The position numbers were made by a program, and so were the translations under genes. A stretch of 64,000 nt of DNA. It comes from Gemmatimonadaceae bacterium (GTDB taxonomy: Bacteria; Gemmatimonadota; Gemmatimonadetes; Gemmatimonadales; Gemmatimonadaceae). The stretch covers positions 1 to 64,000 of the forward strand of contig JAICKA010000007.1 of NCBI GenBank assembly GCA_025928185.1, in the 5' to 3' direction. The first letter of the stretch is position 1, and each line of letters starts with the position of its first letter. Shown one piece after another: positions 1,389 to 52,395 of this stretch. Under the pieces are notes generated by a model that saw only the letters and a list, made by a program, of their open reading frames with translations, was not told the origin of the DNA and ran no database searches.

Positions 1389-1913
1389 TCAGCTCTTCGG
1401 CACGTTCGCGGCGATACGGTCGAGCACCATCTGCTCCAGCTTGCCCTTCGTGCCGCACGGGATGCGATCGCTGCTGCCCTCGGTGATATCCTGACCGCTC
1501 GGCAGGAGCGTCGTTTCCACGGTCGAGCCGCCGCCATCCGCGGGCATCACGCTCGTGAGCAGCGACATGTAGATGCGATACGACGATGCGTTCAGGCCTT
1601 CCGGCCCCGAGCCGCAGTCGACGATCGACGTCATCGCCTGCCCGGCAATGGTGCGCTGTCTATAGAAGTCCGGATTGCCCAACTGATGACTCGGCGGGTT
1701 GTCGAACGTGAGCGGGATCCCGAGGTCCGCGTACGCCTTCCGCGCGGCGATCCATACCGTGGCCGGCGGCGACTTCAGCTCGACGTGCGTGCCGATCGGC
1801 TGGTCGCCGAGCGTGACACCGCGACTGTCGACGAGAATGGTGGGACGACGTGCGGGGGCAGGTCCGGCGCTCGCGCAACCGCACAGACCGACGAGCAGAA
1901 GGATCCGACGCAT
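1389..1913 (-). CDS. Small secreted lipoprotein, hypothetical
   Basis: 174-residue protein of unknown function. It starts MRRILLLVGLCGCASAGP, a lipoprotein signal with lipobox-like LCGC/GCAS, so it is probably membrane-anchored outside the cytoplasm. The reading frame stays open upstream to 2024, but the start at 1913 puts the signal peptide at the N-terminus and avoids overlap with the divergent M28 gene. The mature part contains a short beta-rich segment (DSRGVTLGDQPIGTHVEL) and later IYMSLLTSVMPADG. I recognise no catalytic motif. It is transcribed towards the S9 peptidase gene, 90 bp downstream. Confidence 0.65.
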   Translation of the reverse strand: MRRILLLVGLCGCASAGPAPARRPTILVDSRGVTLGDQPIGTHVELKSPPATVWIAARKAYADLGIPLTFDNPPSHQLGNPDFYRQRTIAGQAMTSIVDCGSGPEGLNASSYRIYMSLLTSVMPADGGGSTVETTLLPSGQDITEGSSDRIPCGTKGKLEQMVLDRIAANVPKS

Positions 1914-2054
1914 GCTGAGGTCCGGTGAGAGAGTGAGAAGAAGATGCAGCAGAGGACGGCGGTTGCAAACCACCCGCAACGTGCGAGTTTCCGGGTGTAT
2001 CCCCGGTCGGGGGAAAAGGTCCACGCACCGGTTCGCCGGTCAGACGCCCAGACA

Positions 2055-22502: not shown

Positions 22503-22690
22503 AGGGGAGAGGGGCGAGAGGAGAGAGGAGAGGAAAAAACCCAGACGGCAGACGTGAGCGATCAGCGGCGAGACGAAGCGAGAGAATGGAATTCGACGGT
22601 CCGACGTCTCGAATCTCGCCGCTCGAATCTCGCCGCTCGGTTGTTGCTCTCCTCTCTCCACTCTCCTCTCTCCTCTCTCCTCTCTAAAAA
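22502..22690. repeat. Inverted purine/pyrimidine word array (GAGAGGA / TCCTCTC)
   Basis: The gap after thyX begins with GAGAGGA-type words (22502-22535) and carries the complementary TCCTCTC words at 22648-22685, both bordered by A-runs (22533-22540 and 22686-22693). A transcript could fold into a long stem. Between them are two GAATCTCGCCGCTC copies (about 22612-22640). No gene is seen up to 22848. The same word family recurs in frame at 23344-23424. Confidence 0.75.
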
Positions 22691-22848: not shown

Positions 22849-24051
22849 ATGACGCGCATCGGATTCGCGTACAACCAGAAGCCCGAGACGACCGCCGCAC
22901 CAGTGGCGCTCGTGAGCGCACCGTCGGCGGAATCGCCAGGCGACGAAGAGCCTCCCAGTAGCGCCGCTGCCAACGCGAGCGACATCTACGCGGAGTGGGA
23001 TTCCGCCGAAACGATCGACGCCGTCGCCGCCGCGCTCGCCCCGCTGGGCGACGTGATCCGCCTCGAGGCCGACGAATCGTTTCCGGAACGCCTCCGCGCC
23101 GAACGTCCCGACATCGTCTTCAACATCGCCGAAGGCCTGTACGGCGCGAATCGCGAAGCGCACGTACCGGCGATCTGCGAATTCTTCGACATTCCGTACT
23201 CGGGCAGCGACCCGTTCACGCTCTCGCTCTGCCTCCAAAAGGGGCGCACCAAGGACGTCCTCCGCGCCAACAACGTGCCGACGGCGCCGTTCTGCGTGAT
23301 TGACTCCATCTCGGATCTGGAGTCTGAGCTCTCGCAGCTGGGTAGGTCCTCTCGTCTCTCCTCTCTCCTGTCTCCTCTCTCGTCAACTTCCTCTTCTCTC
23401 TCCTCTCTCCCTTCTCCCCTCTTCATCAAGCCGGTCCAGGAGGGCTCGTCGAAGGGAATCACCGAGAAGAACTTCATTCGCACGCGCGACGAGCTCGTCG
23501 CGCAGACGCGTTTTCTCCTCGAGACCTACGCGCAACCGGTGATCGTGGAAACGTTCCTGCCCGGCGTCGAGTTCACCTGTGGCGTCCTTGGCAACGGCGC
23601 GACCGCGCGCGTGCTGCCGCTCGTTGGCATGAACTTCGGCGCGCTGCCGAGCGGCGCGCTGCCCATTTATGGATTCGAAGCAAAGTGGGTCTGGGACACC
23701 AAGGACGAGCCGCTCGACATCTTTGAATGTCCGGCGCGTGTCGACTCGGATCTCCAGCGCGCCATCGAGAACGTGGTGCTCCGTGCCTACCGCGTGCTCG
23801 GCTGCCGCGACTGGGCGCGGGTCGACGTGCGGCTCGATGCCGCCGGCGTGCCGAACATCGTCGAGGTGAATCCGCTGCCGGGCATTCTCCCCGATCCGCG
23901 CGACAACTCCTGTCTGCCGAAAGCCGCGCGCGCCGCGGGGCTCGGCTACGCCAAGCTGATTCAGACCTGTCTCACGCACGCCGCCGAACGGCAGGGTGTG
24001 CCGCTCCGCCGCCGCACGCGGATTCCGACTCGCTGGGCGGCGATCGCGTGA
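22849..24051 (+). CDS. ATP-grasp ligase 1 (D-Ala-D-Ala ligase-like)
   Basis: 400-residue ATP-grasp enzyme that should join a carboxylate to an amine with ATP. Seen: the N-terminal RIGFAYNQKPE, PDIVFNIAEGLYG, EFFDIPYSGSDP, the ATP lysine in FIKPVQEGSSKGI, VETFLPGVEFTCGVLG, and the metal-binding DVRLDAAGVPNIVEVNPLPG. Two unusual parts occur: a 40-residue acidic Ala/Pro insert after residue 12, and a Ser/Leu-only stretch before FIKP encoded by a TCTCCTC repeat. The ATG at 22849 has GAGACGGG upstream. The stop overlaps the next ligase (GTGA). Confidence 0.88.
   Translation: MTRIGFAYNQKPETTAAPVALVSAPSAESPGDEEPPSSAAANASDIYAEWDSAETIDAVAAALAPLGDVIRLEADESFPERLRAERPDIVFNIAEGLYGANREAHVPAICEFFDIPYSGSDPFTLSLCLQKGRTKDVLRANNVPTAPFCVIDSISDLESELSQLGRSSRLSSLLSPLSSTSSSLSSLPSPLFIKPVQEGSSKGITEKNFIRTRDELVAQTRFLLETYAQPVIVETFLPGVEFTCGVLGNGATARVLPLVGMNFGALPSGALPIYGFEAKWVWDTKDEPLDIFECPARVDSDLQRAIENVVLRAYRVLGCRDWARVDVRLDAAGVPNIVEVNPLPGILPDPRDNSCLPKAARAAGLGYAKLIQTCLTHAAERQGVPLRRRTRIPTRWAAIA
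23344..23424 (+). repeat. In-frame TCCTCTC repeat inside ATP-grasp ligase 1
   Basis: About 80 bp of TCTCCTCTCTCC-type words within the coding sequence, read as Ser/Leu/Pro (SRLSSLLSPLSSTSSSLSSL). The word is the same as in the intergenic array at 22648-22685, on the same strand. It lies in a linker just before the ATP-binding FIKP strand, so the fold probably tolerates it. Confidence 0.85.
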
Positions 24052-44033: not shown

Positions 44034-46253
44034 TCACCACCGAATGATTCGCTTCAGGAAATCTCCGATGCGTCGCCCCAGATCCTCCACCGGATCGCGG
44101 CCGTTGCGCATGCCGTTCGGATCGATCGCGATCTGGTCGGGTTCGGGACCGGTGTGCAGGTGACAGGCTTCACGCGGCTCCTGGTTCGGCTTGTACCACT
44201 GCCGCACGCGCGTTGGACACCACGCGGTCGCCAGCTCGCCGCTTTCCGGGTCCACGACGGCGGGCACCATGTCGGCGGGCACGGTGAAGTCGGCGCCGCG
44301 CTGCTCGTGCCAGCCGGCCTGATAGAACTCCGCCCACGCCGGCGCGGCGAGCCGGCCGCCGGTGGCGTTCGGCGCGATCGGGTGCGGCGTGTCGTAGCCG
44401 AACCAGATGCCGGCGACGAGTGAAGGGGTGAAGCCGACGAACCAAGCGTCCGTGCCGTCGTTCGTCGTGCCCGTCTTGCCGGCGATCGGACCGGTGAGGC
44501 CCATCGCGCGGATCGTCTTGCCCGTCCCGTAGTTCACGACGCCTTCGAGCATTTCAGTGATCTCATATGCGTCGCGCGGATCCATCGCCGCGGTGCGCTT
44601 CACCTCCGTGCTCCAGAGCAGGGTGCCGTCCGGTGCCTCGATGCGCGTTACCAGGCGCGGCGTCACCCGCACGCCGCCGTTCGCAAACGGCGCGTACGCC
44701 GTCACGAGCTCGATCGGCGTTACGCCTTCGGCGCCGAGTGCGATCGACGGCACCGGCGTGAGCGGACTCGTGATGCCGTTCCGTCGCGCCGCTTCGATTA
44801 CTGCCGTCTCGCCGACCGCGCGGCTCACGCGCACCGTGGCGTTGTTGGCCGAGAGCAGCAGCGCGCGTGCGAACGTTATACGTCCGTTGTACTCGTCGTT
44901 GAAGTTCGCCGGCTGCCAGACCTGATTCCCGATCTCGATGTCCACCGGCTCGTCGTCCACTTCGGCGCCCGGCGAGTAGCCGTTGGCCACGGCCGCCGCG
45001 TAGACGAACGGCTTGAACGCGGACCCGGGTTGTCGTCTCGCGTACAGTGCGCGATCGAACCCGCCGCGCTGCGTGCGCTTGCCGGGTACCAGTGCGCGAA
45101 TGTCCCCCGTCGCAGGATCGAGTGCCACGAGCGCTCCCTGCACTTCCTCCGACTGGTGGCCCATCGTCTCGTGGCTCTCGCGCGTGATCGACGCCATGTG
45201 CCGCGACATCGTGCGATCGGCCGAGCGTTGCAAGGTGTAGTCGATCGTCGTGTAGACGTTGATGTCACCCTCTTCCTTCAGCGCATCGGGCAGCACGGAG
45301 TCGACGAGCGCACGAATCGCGTCGAGCGCGCCGGGTTCGTCGGCCACCGATGGCCGCCACTCCGTGTCCGAGATCTTCAACCTCTGCCGCTCGGCCGCAC
45401 TGGCCTGCGACTGCGTGATGTACCCCTGGTCGGCCATGAGCCCGAGCACGAGGTTGCGCCGCTCGACCGCGCGCTTCGGATCGTGACGCGGCGTATACGT
45501 CGACGGCGCCTTCGGCAACGCGGCGAGCATCGCGCCTTCGGCGAGCGTGAGGTGGTTGACGCTCTTGCCGAACAGGTCGAGACTGGCCGCCTGCACGCCG
45601 TTCACCCCGCTACCGAGGTAGATGACGTTCAGGTAATGCTCGAGGATCTGATCCTTCGTCAGATCGCGCTCGAGCAAGCGCGAGATGCGCAGCTCGATCA
45701 GCTTGCGACGCAGCGAACGGCCGTGATACCGGTCGGCGAGAAAGCTGTTGTGCGCGACTTGCATGGTGATCGTGCTGAAGCCCTGGCGAATACCGCCGGC
45801 GCTGAAGTTCCGCACGATCGCGCGGAGGACGCCGTGCCAGTCGAGTCCATTGTGTTCGTAGAACCGCTTGTCCTCGGTCGCGATGAATGCCTCGCGCACG
45901 AGCGGCGGCACCATGCTGATCGGTACGTTGACGCGGCGGATGTTCTCGAGATGGCCGATGAGCTTGTCGTTCCGGTCGTAGACGTTGCCGCCCTCGCTCG
46001 GATGGAACGCGCGAATCTCGGCAGACGACGGGCAGCGATCGAAGCCACAGGTCCCCAGCCACACGTCGAACAGGATGATTCCGACGCAGGCCACGGCGAG
46101 CAGCGCGAGCGACGGCCAGTGCCGGCGCAGCCATTTCGCCGGCGGGTTGGATGGATCGGGCGCCAGGCGTCGCCGAAGCACATCGAGTCGGCTGATGCGT
46201 TGGTTGGAGGCGCCGGATTGGGGGTCCGGGCCGGGGGGTGGTGTGACCGTCAC
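44034..46253 (-). CDS. Class A penicillin-binding protein (PBP1A/1C-like)
   Basis: 739-residue bifunctional peptidoglycan synthase. After a short cytoplasmic tail there is one membrane anchor (LALLAVACVGIILFDVWLG). The GT51 glycosyltransferase follows, with ATEDKRFYEHNGLDW carrying the catalytic Glu, QGFSTITMQVAHN and LEHYLNVIYLGSG. The transpeptidase has the active Ser in RQPGSAFKPF, SxN in LLSANNATV and KTGT in IAGKTGTTNDG. It is complete and should work at the septum or lateral wall. Convergent with repeat copy B; divergent from the deacetylase gene. Confidence 0.95.
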   Translation of the reverse strand: MTVTPPPGPDPQSGASNQRISRLDVLRRRLAPDPSNPPAKWLRRHWPSLALLAVACVGIILFDVWLGTCGFDRCPSSAEIRAFHPSEGGNVYDRNDKLIGHLENIRRVNVPISMVPPLVREAFIATEDKRFYEHNGLDWHGVLRAIVRNFSAGGIRQGFSTITMQVAHNSFLADRYHGRSLRRKLIELRISRLLERDLTKDQILEHYLNVIYLGSGVNGVQAASLDLFGKSVNHLTLAEGAMLAALPKAPSTYTPRHDPKRAVERRNLVLGLMADQGYITQSQASAAERQRLKISDTEWRPSVADEPGALDAIRALVDSVLPDALKEEGDINVYTTIDYTLQRSADRTMSRHMASITRESHETMGHQSEEVQGALVALDPATGDIRALVPGKRTQRGGFDRALYARRQPGSAFKPFVYAAAVANGYSPGAEVDDEPVDIEIGNQVWQPANFNDEYNGRITFARALLLSANNATVRVSRAVGETAVIEAARRNGITSPLTPVPSIALGAEGVTPIELVTAYAPFANGGVRVTPRLVTRIEAPDGTLLWSTEVKRTAAMDPRDAYEITEMLEGVVNYGTGKTIRAMGLTGPIAGKTGTTNDGTDAWFVGFTPSLVAGIWFGYDTPHPIAPNATGGRLAAPAWAEFYQAGWHEQRGADFTVPADMVPAVVDPESGELATAWCPTRVRQWYKPNQEPREACHLHTGPEPDQIAIDPNGMRNGRDPVEDLGRRIGDFLKRIIRW

Positions 46254-46367: not shown

Positions 46368-47414
46368 ATGACGTTCCGGTGGGTGGCGGGTGTGGCGTGC
46401 GCGGCGGCGATCGCGGCGTGCGGGTCGAACGGCGGTCAGAACGGGAGCGGCGCCGGCGGGTCGACGGCGGCGGCCTCGTCGGCTGCGTCCAACGGCAAGG
46501 CAGATACGGCGGGCGGCGCCGTGACGTCGGTGGCGGGCGGCGCGATTGCCGCCGGCGACACGACCCACGGATTGCCGGCCAACCACATGGGCCGAATTCC
46601 CGTGCTCGAGTACCACGTGATCGCCGGCTCGCAGAACGCACTGTACACGCGGACCGTGGCGAGCTTCAAGGCCGACCTCGAGGACGTGTATCGTCGCGGC
46701 TATCGGCCGATCACCGTCGCGCAGATGCTCGACAAGGACTTCTCGGACGTGCCGGCCGGCAAGTCGCCCGTGATCTTCGTGTTCGACGATGCGTCGCCAT
46801 CACAGTTCTCGTATGTCCAGGGCGCCAACGGCCAGCTGACAATCGACCCGAACAGCGGCGTCGGCATCTGGGAGGATTTCATCAAGACGCATCCCGGCTG
46901 GAAGAACCGCGCGACGTTCTGCATGCTCAACGGCGCATCCGATGGCCACAACTTCTTCGGCGACAACCCGAAGTACGGCGGGCAGCAGAAAGCCTGGCGG
47001 TTCCAGAAGGTGAAATGGCTCGCCGACAACGGCTTCGAGCTGTGCGACCACACCATCTGGCACATGAAGCTGAGCCAGTATCCGGACGATCAGGTGCAGC
47101 ACCAGATCGCCGGCAACATGATGGCGATCGATTCGGCCGTGCCTGGCTACAAGATCCGGACGCTTGCGCTTCCCTACGGCTTGTGGCCGAAGAACAAGCA
47201 GCTTGCCTGGCAGGGTACGTGGACTGACCCAAAGACCGGCACGGCGCATCCGTATCACTTCGAGGCCGTGCTCGAGGTGGCGGGCGGCCCGACGCGCAGC
47301 CCGTTCGATCCGCAGTTCGATCCGCACCACATCACGCGCATCCAGGCGGTCGGCAACGACATTGCCAAGACGCTCGATCAGCTGGACAAGACGAAGAACA
47401 GGTTCGTGAAATAG
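46368..47414 (+). CDS. Polysaccharide deacetylase, lipoprotein
   Basis: 348-residue carbohydrate esterase 4-like protein. The lipoprotein signal ends AAAIAACGSNGG and a Ser/Ala/Gly-rich spacer follows to about residue 65. The NodB-type domain shows IPVLEYHVI, the Asp pair of motif 1 in IFVFDDASPSQFSY, motif 2 His-x4-His as CDHTIWHMKL, and ALPYGLWPKN. It should remove acetyl groups from a cell-surface polysaccharide or peptidoglycan, which fits the divergent penicillin-binding protein gene. Confidence 0.87.
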   Translation: MTFRWVAGVACAAAIAACGSNGGQNGSGAGGSTAAASSAASNGKADTAGGAVTSVAGGAIAAGDTTHGLPANHMGRIPVLEYHVIAGSQNALYTRTVASFKADLEDVYRRGYRPITVAQMLDKDFSDVPAGKSPVIFVFDDASPSQFSYVQGANGQLTIDPNSGVGIWEDFIKTHPGWKNRATFCMLNGASDGHNFFGDNPKYGGQQKAWRFQKVKWLADNGFELCDHTIWHMKLSQYPDDQVQHQIAGNMMAIDSAVPGYKIRTLALPYGLWPKNKQLAWQGTWTDPKTGTAHPYHFEAVLEVAGGPTRSPFDPQFDPHHITRIQAVGNDIAKTLDQLDKTKNRFVK

Positions 47415-47420
47415 AGGCGA

Positions 47421-47448
47421 GAGGATAGAGGATAGAGGATAGAGGATA
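47421..47448. repeat. GAGGATA heptamer x4
   Basis: Four perfect tandem GAGGATA units directly after the deacetylase stop, preceded by GAGGCGA. The remaining gap to 47570 holds no gene. Related in composition to the GAGAGGA arrays at 22502 and 23344. Confidence 0.75.
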
Positions 47449-47570
47449 GTATTTTCTAGCCGCTGACCTCCACCCTCTCGCTACAATCCAGCAAACACGT
47501 CCGGCAAATCGATCGATCAGCTCGAGTCGACGCGCGGCACGGTGATGGTCATGGCGATGGTGTATCGGCC

Positions 47571-48155
47571 CTAGCCGCCCCAGACCACGGTGCGCTTGGC
47601 CCACGCGGTGTTCTGGAAGCGTTTTGCGAACTGCTGTTTGAGTTTTCTCAACTCCGCCGGGTCGTGGGTCGCGCTGTAGCGCGAGACACCGGCCCAGTAC
47701 AGCGCCTCCGGCGCCGCATCGGTATGTGCGCCATCAGCCGAGGCCTGCTCGAACCACCGTTCGGCATCGGGCCAGCGCTTGTCGTTCACCGCGCCATAGC
47801 CGAGCGCGAGGTGGAGCTGGCCGAGCAGCTCGTCGGCGGGCAGGAAGCCCTCGATGCGCCGCAGCTCCTTGCCGTCGGGCGCGAGCGCGATCACGGTCGG
47901 CGTCCAGCGAATGGCGAAGCGGTGCCACATCGTCGGATTCTCCTTGATGTGGACCCGTGCTGTTACAAAGTTCTCACGAATGAACGCCGTGACTTCCGGC
48001 GTCGGATACACCTCGGCTTCCAGCCGAGCACAGCCACTTCACTGCGGCGCGGCGGTGAAATCGAGGAGGACGGGCTTGTGCTCCTGCTTGGCGAGAGCAA
48101 GGGTCGCGTCGACGTCGCGTGACCAGTCGATTTGGGGTGATTGTGTGGCGGACAT
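47571..48155 (-). CDS. Thioredoxin-like probable selenoprotein (UGA at 48039-48041)
   Basis: A 195-codon frame with one internal TGA. The upstream part starts MSATQSPQIDWSRDVDATL (GGAG before the ATG) and reaches VLLDFTAAPQ. Then come TGA and, in the same frame, SGCARLEAEVYPTPEV followed by RFAIRWTPTVIALAPDG with the cis-Pro loop of a thioredoxin fold. The TGA sits where the first Cys of CxxC belongs, giving U-S-G-C. A hairpin with SECIS geometry follows (48012-48028). The C-terminal 75 residues are TPR-like helices (LHLALGYGAVNDKRWPDAER, ALYWAGVSRYSA). The protein would be a cytoplasmic thiol/selenol redox protein if Sec is inserted. The alternative is a nonsense mutation in a decaying gene, but both halves look well preserved. 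No sel genes are in the window. Confidence 0.75.
48012..48028 (-). promoter_or_regulatory. Candidate bacterial SECIS hairpin
   Basis: In the minus-strand RNA, CUCGGCU and AGCCGAG form a perfect 7-bp stem with loop GGA. It starts 10 nt after the UGA, putting the loop 18-20 nt downstream. A small apical loop with G in its first two positions at about this distance is the published pattern for bacterial SECIS elements. Other pairings of this GC-rich stretch were not computed. Confidence 0.65.
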
Positions 48156-48364: not shown

Positions 48365-48712
48365 ATGACGATCCGCGAGCTCGATCTCCTCCAGGGCACG
48401 CTCGACGTGCTCGTGCTGCGCGCGTTGTCGATGGGCCCGATGCACGGTTATGCCGTTGCCCGCTTCATCCGCGACGGCTCCGACGGCTCGTTCAAGGTCC
48501 TCGACGGCGCACTCTATACGTCGCTCCACCGCATGGAGGAGCGCGGGTGGGTGGAGTCGGAATGGGGCAACTCCGACAAGAAGAAGCGCGCCAAGTTCTA
48601 CCGGCTCACGGCTGCCGGCCGGCGCGCGCTGCGCAGCGAAACGCAATCATGGAACGACTACGTCGCCGCGGTCGCCCGCGTGATGATCGCGCCGGCGCCC
48701 GAGCCCGGCTGA
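48365..48712 (+). CDS. PadR family transcriptional regulator
   Basis: 115-residue winged-helix repressor. LLQGTLDVLVLRALSMGPMH is the PadR N-terminus; GYAVARFIRDGSDGSFKVLD and GALYTSLHRMEERGWVESEW form the recognition helix and wing; KRAKFYRLTAAGRRAL is the family C-terminus. It belongs to the short PadR-s1 group. It is followed 28 bp later by an ADOP permease gene, which it probably controls together with itself. Confidence 0.93.
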   Translation: MTIRELDLLQGTLDVLVLRALSMGPMHGYAVARFIRDGSDGSFKVLDGALYTSLHRMEERGWVESEWGNSDKKKRAKFYRLTAAGRRALRSETQSWNDYVAAVARVMIAPAPEPG

Positions 48713-48740
48713 CCTCGACCGTCCGCCGCGAGGAGCATTG

Positions 48741-51458
48741 ATGAAATCCTCATCACCCGCCTGGTACCGCTATCTGCGCTTCTGGCGCCGCGACGTGCCG
48801 GCCGACATCGACGCGGAGCTGCGCTTCCATTTCGACGCGCGGATCGAGGAGTTGACGGCGCGCGGGCTGTCGCTGGAGGCCGCGCGGGCGCAGGCGACGG
48901 AGGAATTCGGCGACGTCGACACGGTGAAGCGCGGACTGCGCGAGATCGACGATCGCGTCGCACGGCGGCACGACCGGATCGAGTGGCTGGACGGCGTGCG
49001 CAAGGATGTCGTGTACGCGGCGCGCTCGCTGCGCCGGACGCCAGCGGTGTCGCTGACGATCATTGTCACGCTCGCATTGGGACTCGGCGTGAACGCGGCG
49101 ATGTTCTCGCTGCTCGACGTGATCTTTCTCAGGCCGCCGGCGGGCGTGGCGCATCCGGAGCAGGTGCGACGGGTGTGGTCGCTGCAGACCTTCGCACGGA
49201 TCGGCACACAATACAGCACGGTCTATGACTACACGAGCTACGCAGCGCTCGAGGACGCGCTCGGTGCCCACACCGATCTCGCCATCTATGGCGCGCCGGG
49301 GCTCCAGCCGCTGTCGAACGATGAGAGTCCGCAGACGGCGACCGTGTCGAGTGTCGGCGAGAGCTATTTCAAACTATTGGGAGTTCAGCCGCAAATCGGC
49401 CGATTCTTCTCGCCAGACGAAAATCGTCTCGACGCCCCCGCACCTGTCGTCGTGATCAGCGACGCGTTCTGGCATCGCCATTTCGGCGGGGATCGCGACA
49501 TTGTTGGAAAAAGCCTGACGATTGGTGCGAACGAATATGGCCGGCATGAGATCCATCAGTACACAGTCATCGGAGTCGCCCCACCACACTTTACTGGAGT
49601 CGACCTCGACGCTGTCGACGTCTGGTGGCCGATTGCGTCGGCCGTTTCGACGCGCCGGGCGCTTGCCTGGTACCGCGATCCGAACGTCAATGGATTCACG
49701 ATTCTGCTGCGATTGCGTTCCGGCGTCGGCGAGGCAGAGCTGGAACAGCGCGCCACTGCCCGCCTTCGCTCGCCGGACGTTGGAGCATTCCGACTCGACA
49801 GCCTCGGCGTGGCCAAGTTCGGTTCCATCCTCGCCGCGCGTGGACCGGGACAGCTGGCGAGCAGCGTCCAGGTCGCGACACGACTCGCCGGCGTCGCGAT
49901 CATCGTTCTGATCATCGCCTGCGCCAATGTGGTCAATCTGCTTCTCGCGCGGGCCGTGCGACGGCGCCGCGAGATCGCCGTGCGCCTCGCACTCGGCGTG
50001 TCCCGCGTTCGTCTCGTCCGATTGCTGATCACGGAAAGCGTACTGCTCGCGACAATCGCGGTTGCCGCGGCGCTGCTCGCCGCGTGGTGGGGTGGCGCGT
50101 TGCTCCGAACCCTGCTAATGCCTCGCGTACACTGGGGGGAGTCACCGATGCATTGGAGAGTGCTTGCGTTCGGTCTGGTCGGCGCACTCGTCGCTGGAAT
50201 GCTCACCGGCCTCGTACCCGCGCTCCAGTCACTCGCGCCCGATCTCACCGATTCACTAAAAGCTGGCGCCCGCAGCGGCGCGACGCATCGGTCCCGTTTG
50301 CGGTCGACGTTGATCGTTGTCCAGGCTGCGCTGTCGATCGTGTTGCTCGTCGGTGCCGCGCTCTTCATTCAGAGCCTCGACAATGTGCGTTCGCGCGACA
50401 TCGGCTACGCCGTCGACCAGCTCGCGTTCGTCGATCTGCGGAACTTCGGACTGGACACTGCGGTTCAGCGGGTGCAGTCCGACCAACTCCTCGCGCTCGA
50501 AACGCGCTTCGCAAATATCCCTGGCGTGCGACGCGTCGCTTACACGTCATTGAAGCCTCTCGGCGGCGAGCAGTTCACCGACTACTTCCCCAGCGCGAGC
50601 ACCGCCAAGAAACCCGAAGGGATATTCACCAGCGTCACCCCGGAGTACTTCGCGACCACGGGGACGCGAATTCTTCGCGGTCGGACCTTTTCGCCGGCGC
50701 ACGCACAGGGCTCACTCGAAGTCATCGTCAATGATGCCATGGCACGTGCGCTCTGGCCTGGACAGACCGCCATCGGCAAGTGCATTCGATTCGAGCACTC
50801 GAACGCACCGTGCGCGACGGTAGTAGGCGTCGCTCAGACCGCGATGCTCGACGGCATCAAGGAAGATCCCGTATCGCACATGTACCTCCCACTCGAGCAC
50901 ATGCCCTTCCCGAGCTGGGGCGTCGGCAGCGTCATCCTCCGCGTCGACCCGGCCCGCATGTCCTCCGTCCTCGCGACCATGCACAACCTGCTCCGCGCCG
51001 AGTTCCCCACCGCGTACTCGCGCTCCACGACAATGGAGCAGTCGATGGAACCGCTCTACCGCCCGTGGAAGCTCGGCGCCACGCTCTTCACGCTCTTCGG
51101 CGTCCTTGCCTTGCTCGTTGCCGGCATCGGCGTCTACAGCAGCGTGTCGTACGCCGTCAGCCAGCGCACGCACGAATTCGGCGTCCGCGCCGCGCTCGGC
51201 GCCACGGCGCGCGATGTCATCGCCCACGTCCTCGGCAGCGGCCTTCGCACCGTGCTCGTGGGAATCGCTGCGGGTGTCGTGCTCGCCCTCGCCGCCGGCC
51301 GACTCGTCGCCTCGCTCCTCTACGGCGTGCAGCCGGACGATGTTCGCGCGCTGCTCGGCGCGGCCGGGGTGTTGCTCGCGATCAGTTTCGTCGCGGCGCT
51401 CGCGCCCGCGTGGCGTGCGGCACGCGTCGACCCGGTCGAGGCCCTGCGAACCGAGTAG
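48741..51458 (+). CDS. ADOP-type FtsX/MacB-like permease
   Basis: 905-residue membrane protein. Residues 1-85 form the permease prefix domain (YRYLRFWRRDVPADIDAELR, ARGLSLEAARAQATEEFGDV). After a first membrane helix (VSLTIIVTLALGLGVNAAMF) comes a periplasmic MacB-PCD-like domain. The FtsX cores follow with ANVVNLLLARAVRRRREIAV, then a second periplasmic domain and final helices ending in WRAARVDPVEALRTE. It has no ATPase of its own or nearby, typical of duplicated orphan permeases found with PadR. GAGGAG stands before the ATG. Substrate unknown; export of peptide or lipid is the usual guess. Confidence 0.92.
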   Translation: MKSSSPAWYRYLRFWRRDVPADIDAELRFHFDARIEELTARGLSLEAARAQATEEFGDVDTVKRGLREIDDRVARRHDRIEWLDGVRKDVVYAARSLRRTPAVSLTIIVTLALGLGVNAAMFSLLDVIFLRPPAGVAHPEQVRRVWSLQTFARIGTQYSTVYDYTSYAALEDALGAHTDLAIYGAPGLQPLSNDESPQTATVSSVGESYFKLLGVQPQIGRFFSPDENRLDAPAPVVVISDAFWHRHFGGDRDIVGKSLTIGANEYGRHEIHQYTVIGVAPPHFTGVDLDAVDVWWPIASAVSTRRALAWYRDPNVNGFTILLRLRSGVGEAELEQRATARLRSPDVGAFRLDSLGVAKFGSILAARGPGQLASSVQVATRLAGVAIIVLIIACANVVNLLLARAVRRRREIAVRLALGVSRVRLVRLLITESVLLATIAVAAALLAAWWGGALLRTLLMPRVHWGESPMHWRVLAFGLVGALVAGMLTGLVPALQSLAPDLTDSLKAGARSGATHRSRLRSTLIVVQAALSIVLLVGAALFIQSLDNVRSRDIGYAVDQLAFVDLRNFGLDTAVQRVQSDQLLALETRFANIPGVRRVAYTSLKPLGGEQFTDYFPSASTAKKPEGIFTSVTPEYFATTGTRILRGRTFSPAHAQGSLEVIVNDAMARALWPGQTAIGKCIRFEHSNAPCATVVGVAQTAMLDGIKEDPVSHMYLPLEHMPFPSWGVGSVILRVDPARMSSVLATMHNLLRAEFPTAYSRSTTMEQSMEPLYRPWKLGATLFTLFGVLALLVAGIGVYSSVSYAVSQRTHEFGVRAALGATARDVIAHVLGSGLRTVLVGIAAGVVLALAAGRLVASLLYGVQPDDVRALLGAAGVLLAISFVAALAPAWRAARVDPVEALRTE

Positions 51459-51549: not shown

Positions 51550-52395
51550 ATGCCGAGTTCTCCGACGGTTTCCGCGCTCGTCACTCGAAAGGAGCGCGTC
51601 TACTACGCCATCATCGTCCTCATCGGCCTCGCCGTCTACGGCGGGATCATCGCCGGCGTCGCGCGCGTGGCGCAGCCAGGCCCGATCGGCGGCGCGCTGA
51701 TCGCCTACGTGGGCTTCTTCGCGCTGATCTACCTGATCGGGCACGGGTTGCTGATCGGCTACCTGCGCGGAAATGGTATATACGTTTCCGAACGACAGTT
51801 TCCGAAAGTGCTCGAGATGGCGCGCCGGCATTGCGCGGCCATCGGACTGGAGGACATGCCGGATCTGCTCGTGGTGCAGTCGGGCGGCATGCTCAACGCG
51901 TTCGCGACACGATTCGTCGGCCGCGACTTCGTCGTCATCTACTCCGACGTGCTCGCCCTGGCCGAGCAGCGCGGTGAAAGCGCGGTCAGCTTCGTTGTCG
52001 CGCACGAGCTCGGACACGTGCGGCGCGGCCACCTGCACTGGCGCTGGCTCACGCTGCCGGGCCGGCTCGTGCCGTTCCTCGGCAGCGCGTACTCGCGCGC
52101 TTGCGAGTACACGTGCGACCGCATCGGCGCGCAGTGCCAGCCGGATGGCGCGGTCGACGGATTGCTCGTCCTCGCCGCCGGCAAGGAGCTGTACCGGCAT
52201 GTGGACGCGCGCGAGTACGTGAACCAGATTCAGACGCAGACCGGCTTCTGGGTCGGCTTCGCCGAGATTCTCGCGTCGCATCCGAATCTGCCGAAGCGCA
52301 TCGCGGCGCTGCTGCCACGCGGCGTACCGGTGCCGTCGTACTCGCCGATGCAAGGTGTTGGCGTCGGCGCACGGCCGGCCGGCACGCCGAGCTGA
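51550..52395 (+). CDS. M48 family zinc metalloprotease (HtpX-like)
   Basis: 281-residue membrane protease. Two N-terminal helices (VYYAIIVLIGLAVYGGIIAG, ALIAYVGFFALIYLIGHGLL) precede the catalytic domain with zinc motif VVAHELGHVRRGH and the third ligand Glu in ACEYTCDRIG. The active site should face the cytoplasm as in HtpX, degrading damaged membrane proteins. Alone after the ADOP gene. Confidence 0.92.
   Translation: MPSSPTVSALVTRKERVYYAIIVLIGLAVYGGIIAGVARVAQPGPIGGALIAYVGFFALIYLIGHGLLIGYLRGNGIYVSERQFPKVLEMARRHCAAIGLEDMPDLLVVQSGGMLNAFATRFVGRDFVVIYSDVLALAEQRGESAVSFVVAHELGHVRRGHLHWRWLTLPGRLVPFLGSAYSRACEYTCDRIGAQCQPDGAVDGLLVLAAGKELYRHVDAREYVNQIQTQTGFWVGFAEILASHPNLPKRIAALLPRGVPVPSYSPMQGVGVGARPAGTPS

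Follow-up and report, generated by a model that had tools for sequence, protein, structure and literature searches.

The stretch of DNA analysed here (the window; 64,000 nucleotides from the genome of a soil Gemmatimonadaceae bacterium) carries on its minus strand a frame that runs from ATG to TAG with exactly one internal stop (Table 1), and the choice of start codon is backed by homologs whose starts lie at a similar position. The internal TGA lies in the context DFTAAPQ-U-SGC-ARLEAEV, where the first cysteine of the thioredoxin CxxC motif would be expected. Mechanical ORF calling cuts the gene in two (48329-48039 and 48011-47571), as the initial annotation had foreseen when it described a single thioredoxin-like frame broken by one TGA at the first cysteine of a CxxC-type motif; translation of the whole frame bears out both the single interruption and its position. 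Divergent from this gene are a PadR-type regulator and then a MacB/FtsX-like ABC permease (48365-51458, plus strand), and nearby lie genes for a penicillin-binding protein (44034-46253, minus strand), a polysaccharide deacetylase (ending at 47414, plus strand) and an M48 peptidase (51550-52395, plus strand); no link between these neighbours in the window and the TGA-containing gene was seen. A 7-bp tandem array (ATAGAGG, 5.6 copies; 47411-47449) is found just downstream of the gene, and arrays of CTCTCCT occur elsewhere in the window (22647-22685 and 23349-23422).

Table 1. Features of the TGA-containing gene, in window coordinates.
Feature	Position	Strand	Description
Predicted selenoprotein gene	47571..48155	-	Complete, 194 aa including Sec39; stop TAG at 47573-47571
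In-frame UGA, predicted Sec39	48039..48041	-	Opens the U-S-G-C redox motif; homologs share the TGA
Cys42	48030..48032	-	Predicted to be the motif's resolving cysteine; invariant across the family
Putative bacterial SECIS hairpin, type I	48012..48028	-	7-bp stem CUCGGCU/AGCCGAG, loop GGA; agrees with bSECIS rules, stem codons nearly frozen
Thioredoxin-fold domain, residues 10-112	47820..48128	-	Pfam PF13098/PF13899/PF00085; AlphaFold2 model, mean pLDDT 92.7
C-terminal TPR-like helices, residues 107-188	47592..47837	-	Five helices in the model; profile matches; TPR_6 in a relative

When the frame is read through the TGA, the protein matches the Pfam family Thioredoxin_2 at 59.4 bits (cut-off 27) over residues 22-112, a span that crosses the TGA, and Pfam Thioredoxin at 31.9 bits against a cut-off of 23.5. 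The domain score, the cis-Pro region RWTPTV (P86 at 47898-47900) and the CxxC-type motif together place it in the thioredoxin-fold superfamily. Profile searches of solved structures relate the thioredoxin part to disulfide-isomerase-like and DsbD-gamma domains and the tail to the TPR regions of YbgF and CpoB, while Foldseek, applied to an AlphaFold2 model built with 28 family sequences, returned DsbH, DsbD-gamma and, weakly, YbbN. Additionally, Pfam TPR_6 is matched in one relative. Residues D32, P37, G41, C42, W84 and P86 are invariant in the family, as is position 39 in being either Sec or Cys. A thioredoxin domain followed by TPR-like helices is thus a confident prediction of the modelling, and the well-preserved thioredoxin sequence on both sides of the TGA and the fused C-terminal helices described in the initial annotation are both recovered.

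Searches for homologs across the TGA, which had been suggested as a check together with the expectation that unrelated stops or frameshifts in relatives would speak for a decayed gene, returned relatives that instead share the TGA at the same codon. Approximately 80 relatives turned up among Gemmatimonadota, Acidobacteriota, Planctomycetota and Myxococcota-like MAGs, and TGA occupies this position in almost every one. In addition to the window gene, 148 related genomes yielded 11 distinct homologs (32-61% identity), and the aligned codon is TGA in 11/11; when 84,980 species genomes were scanned, 24 loci emerged, again with TGA, from Gemmatimonadota, Acidobacteriota, 'Deltaproteobacteria' (of which one belongs in Myxococcota) and the anammox planctomycete Candidatus Loosdrechtia. 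By profile search, TGA forms are present in 16/395 Gemmatimonadota, 25/396 Acidobacteriota and about 42/294 Planctomycetota genomes, the best 30 of the about 42 planctomycete genomes having been read base by base. Since the TGA is aligned in 11 diverged homologs and the codons of the hairpin that follows it are conserved (see below), its position is more than chance, and the locus shows what is looked for in a bacterial selenoprotein, namely a UGA at a conserved redox position with homology on both sides. Some planctomycete genomes hold two or three copies of the gene, and in Candidatus Loosdrechtia (L126) two copies stand in tandem (827-1372 and 1501-2049, minus strand). Only distant DsbD, DUF255 and thioredoxin-family matches were obtained from a plasmid collection. 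No conserved neighbouring gene hints at a substrate; the one recurrent neighbour across the loci is a dinB-like gene (DNA polymerase IV type), which lies directly downstream in four Gemmatimonadota loci (L048, L054, L055 and L064).

The RNA that follows the UGA can fold into a short hairpin composed of CTCGGCT (48028-48022), GGA (48021-48019) and AGCCGAG (48018-48012), the 7-bp stem with GGA loop at SECIS distance that had been noted initially. Published rules for bacterial SECIS elements (bSECIS; PMC13188914) ask for a loop of 3-9 nt, a stem of 4-16 bp, G in the first two loop positions, a distance of 16-37 nt from the UGA and a folding energy of -7.5 kcal/mol or lower. The window hairpin passes, with its stem of 7 bp, its GGA loop 17 nt after the UGA and an energy of -9.8 kcal/mol; Rfam gave no match in the window. 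Folding energy was dropped as evidence for a SECIS element, because a z-score of -1.15 is ordinary for such GC-rich DNA and 46% of synonymous resamples of the window are as stable as the native hairpin or more so. As its stability is ordinary, the argument for the hairpin rests on conservation and position. The five stem codons (GCT, CGG, CTG, GCC and GAG) are identical in 26/26 members of the window clade, a set not picked by pairing, and GCT accounts for only 7% of alanine codons elsewhere in these genes. Among 35 members, picked partly by stem pairing, the five stem codons show a synonymous entropy of 0.08 bits, versus 1.23 bits for 31 other conserved codons. Judging from this codon conservation, the hairpin of the window clade is under selection. 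That an ordinary Cys thioredoxin-like gene was interrupted here by a nonsense mutation, whether genuine or a sequencing artefact, as the draft state of the window genome (a MAG) and the mechanical splitting of the frame might suggest, is refuted with near certainty by the recurrence of the same TGA, both flanks conserved, in dozens of independent assemblies from at least three phyla, and is further opposed by the conserved stem codons.

The presence of selA, selB, selC and selD in the host had also been proposed as a check, and all four genes are found in the window genome: tRNA-Sec scores 74 bits and is also detected by ARAGORN, and SelA, SelB and SelD score 543, 357 and 370 bits, respectively. 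SelD, encoded directly upstream of tRNA-Sec (L042:1501-2424, contig C53), has an in-frame TGA of its own (CAGU-AAK) and is predicted to be itself a selenoprotein, so that its TGA is an internal control for Sec use in this genome; the hairpin after it is weak by the bSECIS rules. The window genome is 90% complete with 5.3% contamination, and its sel genes are on contigs other than that of the window. Contamination is an unlikely explanation for them, since tRNA-Sec is also present in 5/5 other genomes sampled from the same genus.

Co-occurrence with tRNA-Sec within Gemmatimonadota proved uninformative, given that 303/395 genomes of the phylum are positive, and SelA in Acidobacteriota was used instead. 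There, SelA is found in 25/25 genomes with the TGA form versus a background of 191/297; assuming independent genomes, the chance of this would be ~0.00002 (0.643 to the power 25), a figure that their relatedness makes less extreme. For Acidobacteriota and Planctomycetota together, SelA is present in 54/55 genomes with the TGA form, the remaining one (G1061) being without a SelA match. Full-length members with Cys in place of Sec number only two, L084 (genome G311, 98% complete) and L117 (genome G729); SelA has no match in either genome, G311 is absent from the tRNA-Sec-positive genomes, and neither gene has a hairpin passing the bSECIS rules. Homologs thus appear both with conserved TGA plus hairpin and as full-length Cys forms. 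Reading of the UGA as an amino acid other than Sec (e.g., Trp or Gly, or whatever a near-cognate suppressor would insert) is very improbable, considering that the window genome has the full Sec machinery, that the SECIS-like hairpin agrees with published rules, and that the full-length alternative to TGA is Cys, in genomes without a SelA match. With the in-frame UGA, the conserved SECIS-like hairpin, the Sec machinery and the family-wide TGA all legible at the sequence level, the gene almost certainly encodes a selenoprotein, with a thioredoxin domain at its N-terminus and two TPR-like hairpins at its C-terminus; the UGA would be decoded as Sec through SelB, tRNA-Sec and the SECIS-like hairpin.

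The rest of the family carries a second type of hairpin (type II), with the stem GG[A/G]U[A/G]C and GUA[U/C]CC, a 6-nt loop (mostly CGUGAC) 23 nt after the UGA, and a position ~6 nt further downstream than type I. In 40 type II sequences, 97% of cells pair and three pairs have changed on both sides; most of these sequences were classed by pairing, which biases the 97% upward and may slightly inflate the covariation counts. These values were reached in 0/500 shuffles, and slid versions pair at 58% or less. The main compensatory change, from A-U to G-C in columns 23/36, is seen in 11 sequences that include close relatives. All bSECIS rules are satisfied by 62/79 TGA members versus 10% of synonymous resamples; most of the members that fail miss the energy limit alone, and in L140 the rules revealed no convincing hairpin.

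In a maximum-likelihood tree of 80 members, those with the type I hairpin form one clade (support 100/97), whose nearest neighbour is the type II member L115 (modest support, 81/80); the root is placed at the midpoint and L115 is a long branch. On the simplest reading, type II gave way to type I a single time. One subclade within the type I clade unites L109 with L110 and L112, all from Acidobacteriota; L109 no longer has the type I stem, and in its place stands an 8-bp hairpin of different sequence, UGCGGCUC-GAACAA-GAGUCGUA, suitably spaced from the UGA, which may mark a second SECIS replacement. L146 has yet another hairpin. Overall, it seems reasonably probable that Sec was kept across several phyla while the SECIS element was replaced, with type II in most lineages, type I (CUCGGC-UGGAN-GCCGAG, loop 16-17 nt after the UGA) in a single, strongly supported clade with members from Gemmatimonadota, Acidobacteriota and Myxococcota-like bacteria, one-off hairpins in L109 and L146, and Cys forms arising only where the Sec machinery was lost. 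Two SECIS types in homologous genes offer a natural experiment on SECIS turnover and on recognition by SelB.

The selenoprotein is most likely a thiol-disulfide reductase, its function and reaction direction being deduced from fold and motif. In the proposed mechanism, SelB and tRNA-Sec, recruited by the type I hairpin, would decode the UGA as Sec39, whose selenolate would attack a disulfide (or an oxidised thiol) in the substrate; Cys42 would then resolve the resulting mixed selenenylsulfide, after which the protein would be re-reduced by a thiol system of the cell. The TPR-like helices probably dock a substrate or partner. A cytoplasmic location is suggested, since no signal peptide is apparent before the thioredoxin domain. 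Alternatively, the selenoprotein could act as an isomerase, as a chaperedoxin-like holdase or as a selenol-based peroxide scavenger rather than as a disulfide reductase. The combination of thioredoxin and TPR regions recalls E. coli YbbN/CnoX, which ranks fourth among the Foldseek matches, and Sec often serves peroxidase chemistry. However, the YbbN match is weak and its domain arrangement differs (TMq 0.42, rmsd 11.8, 16% identity), the nearest sequence relatives are DsbD-gamma and disulfide isomerase-like thioredoxin domains, and the invariant resolving cysteine suits two-residue redox cycling. These alternative functions consequently have perhaps a minor share of the probability, and disulfide reduction is preferred.

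The gene adds a widespread family of selenoproteins, found among common soil phyla as well as anammox bacteria, that standard annotation would break in two; little discussion of selenoproteins in anammox bacteria was found in the open-access literature. Many selenoprotein families are dominated by Cys forms. In this one almost all members use Sec, and for that reason a noticeable share of the selenium used by these bacteria may go into this protein.

Comparison with described families places the window protein near, and outside, several known groups. No NCBIfam model (June 2026) claims any tested member. Among the best relatives of the thioredoxin domain are TsoB (NF045694), which gives the highest NCBIfam score of the window protein (50.8 bits over residues 3-115), and the C-terminal DsbD-gamma domain of DsbD structures; scores are far below the curated cut-offs (805 for TsoB, 330 for DsbD), and, unlike these proteins, the window protein stands alone, with a TPR-like tail and without rhodanese or membrane domains. 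The VPGUxxT (NF041382/NF041383) and Trx7/PDZ (NF041199) families likewise have thioredoxin-like domains with Sec/Cys alternatives, but differ in their Sec motifs (VPGU, CxxU), greater length and other fusions, and the window protein scores far below their cut-offs (39 against 275, 29 against 350 and 22 against 300). It therefore belongs to none of the NCBIfam selenoprotein families TsoB, VPGUxxT and Trx7/PDZ. YbbN/CnoX, the E. coli chaperedoxin, shares the order of a thioredoxin domain followed by TPR repeats, and the structural values given above place the window protein outside it; in YbbN the TPR region is longer and Sec is absent.

A 2026 catalogue of prokaryotic selenoproteins (PMC13188914), in which families are named by domain, names no Trx-TPR family, and its main text is silent on these phyla. 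The catalogue entry 'Thiol:disulfide interchange protein' (PF13098, UxxC, WP_011366075.1) has the PF13098 domain and the position of the UxxC motif in common with the window family and may belong to it; the catalogue text mentions neither a TPR-like extension nor any of these host phyla. No description of a Trx-TPR selenoprotein, or of selenoproteins in these phyla, was found in the open-access literature. The initial annotation had placed the novelty in the family and its host: the family does appear new relative to NCBIfam and, leaving aside the entry WP_011366075.1, to the 2026 catalogue, while its distribution turned out to be far broader than one host. A UxxC thioredoxin-like selenoprotein is of a known kind, and it is the family, its breadth and the switch between SECIS types that look new.
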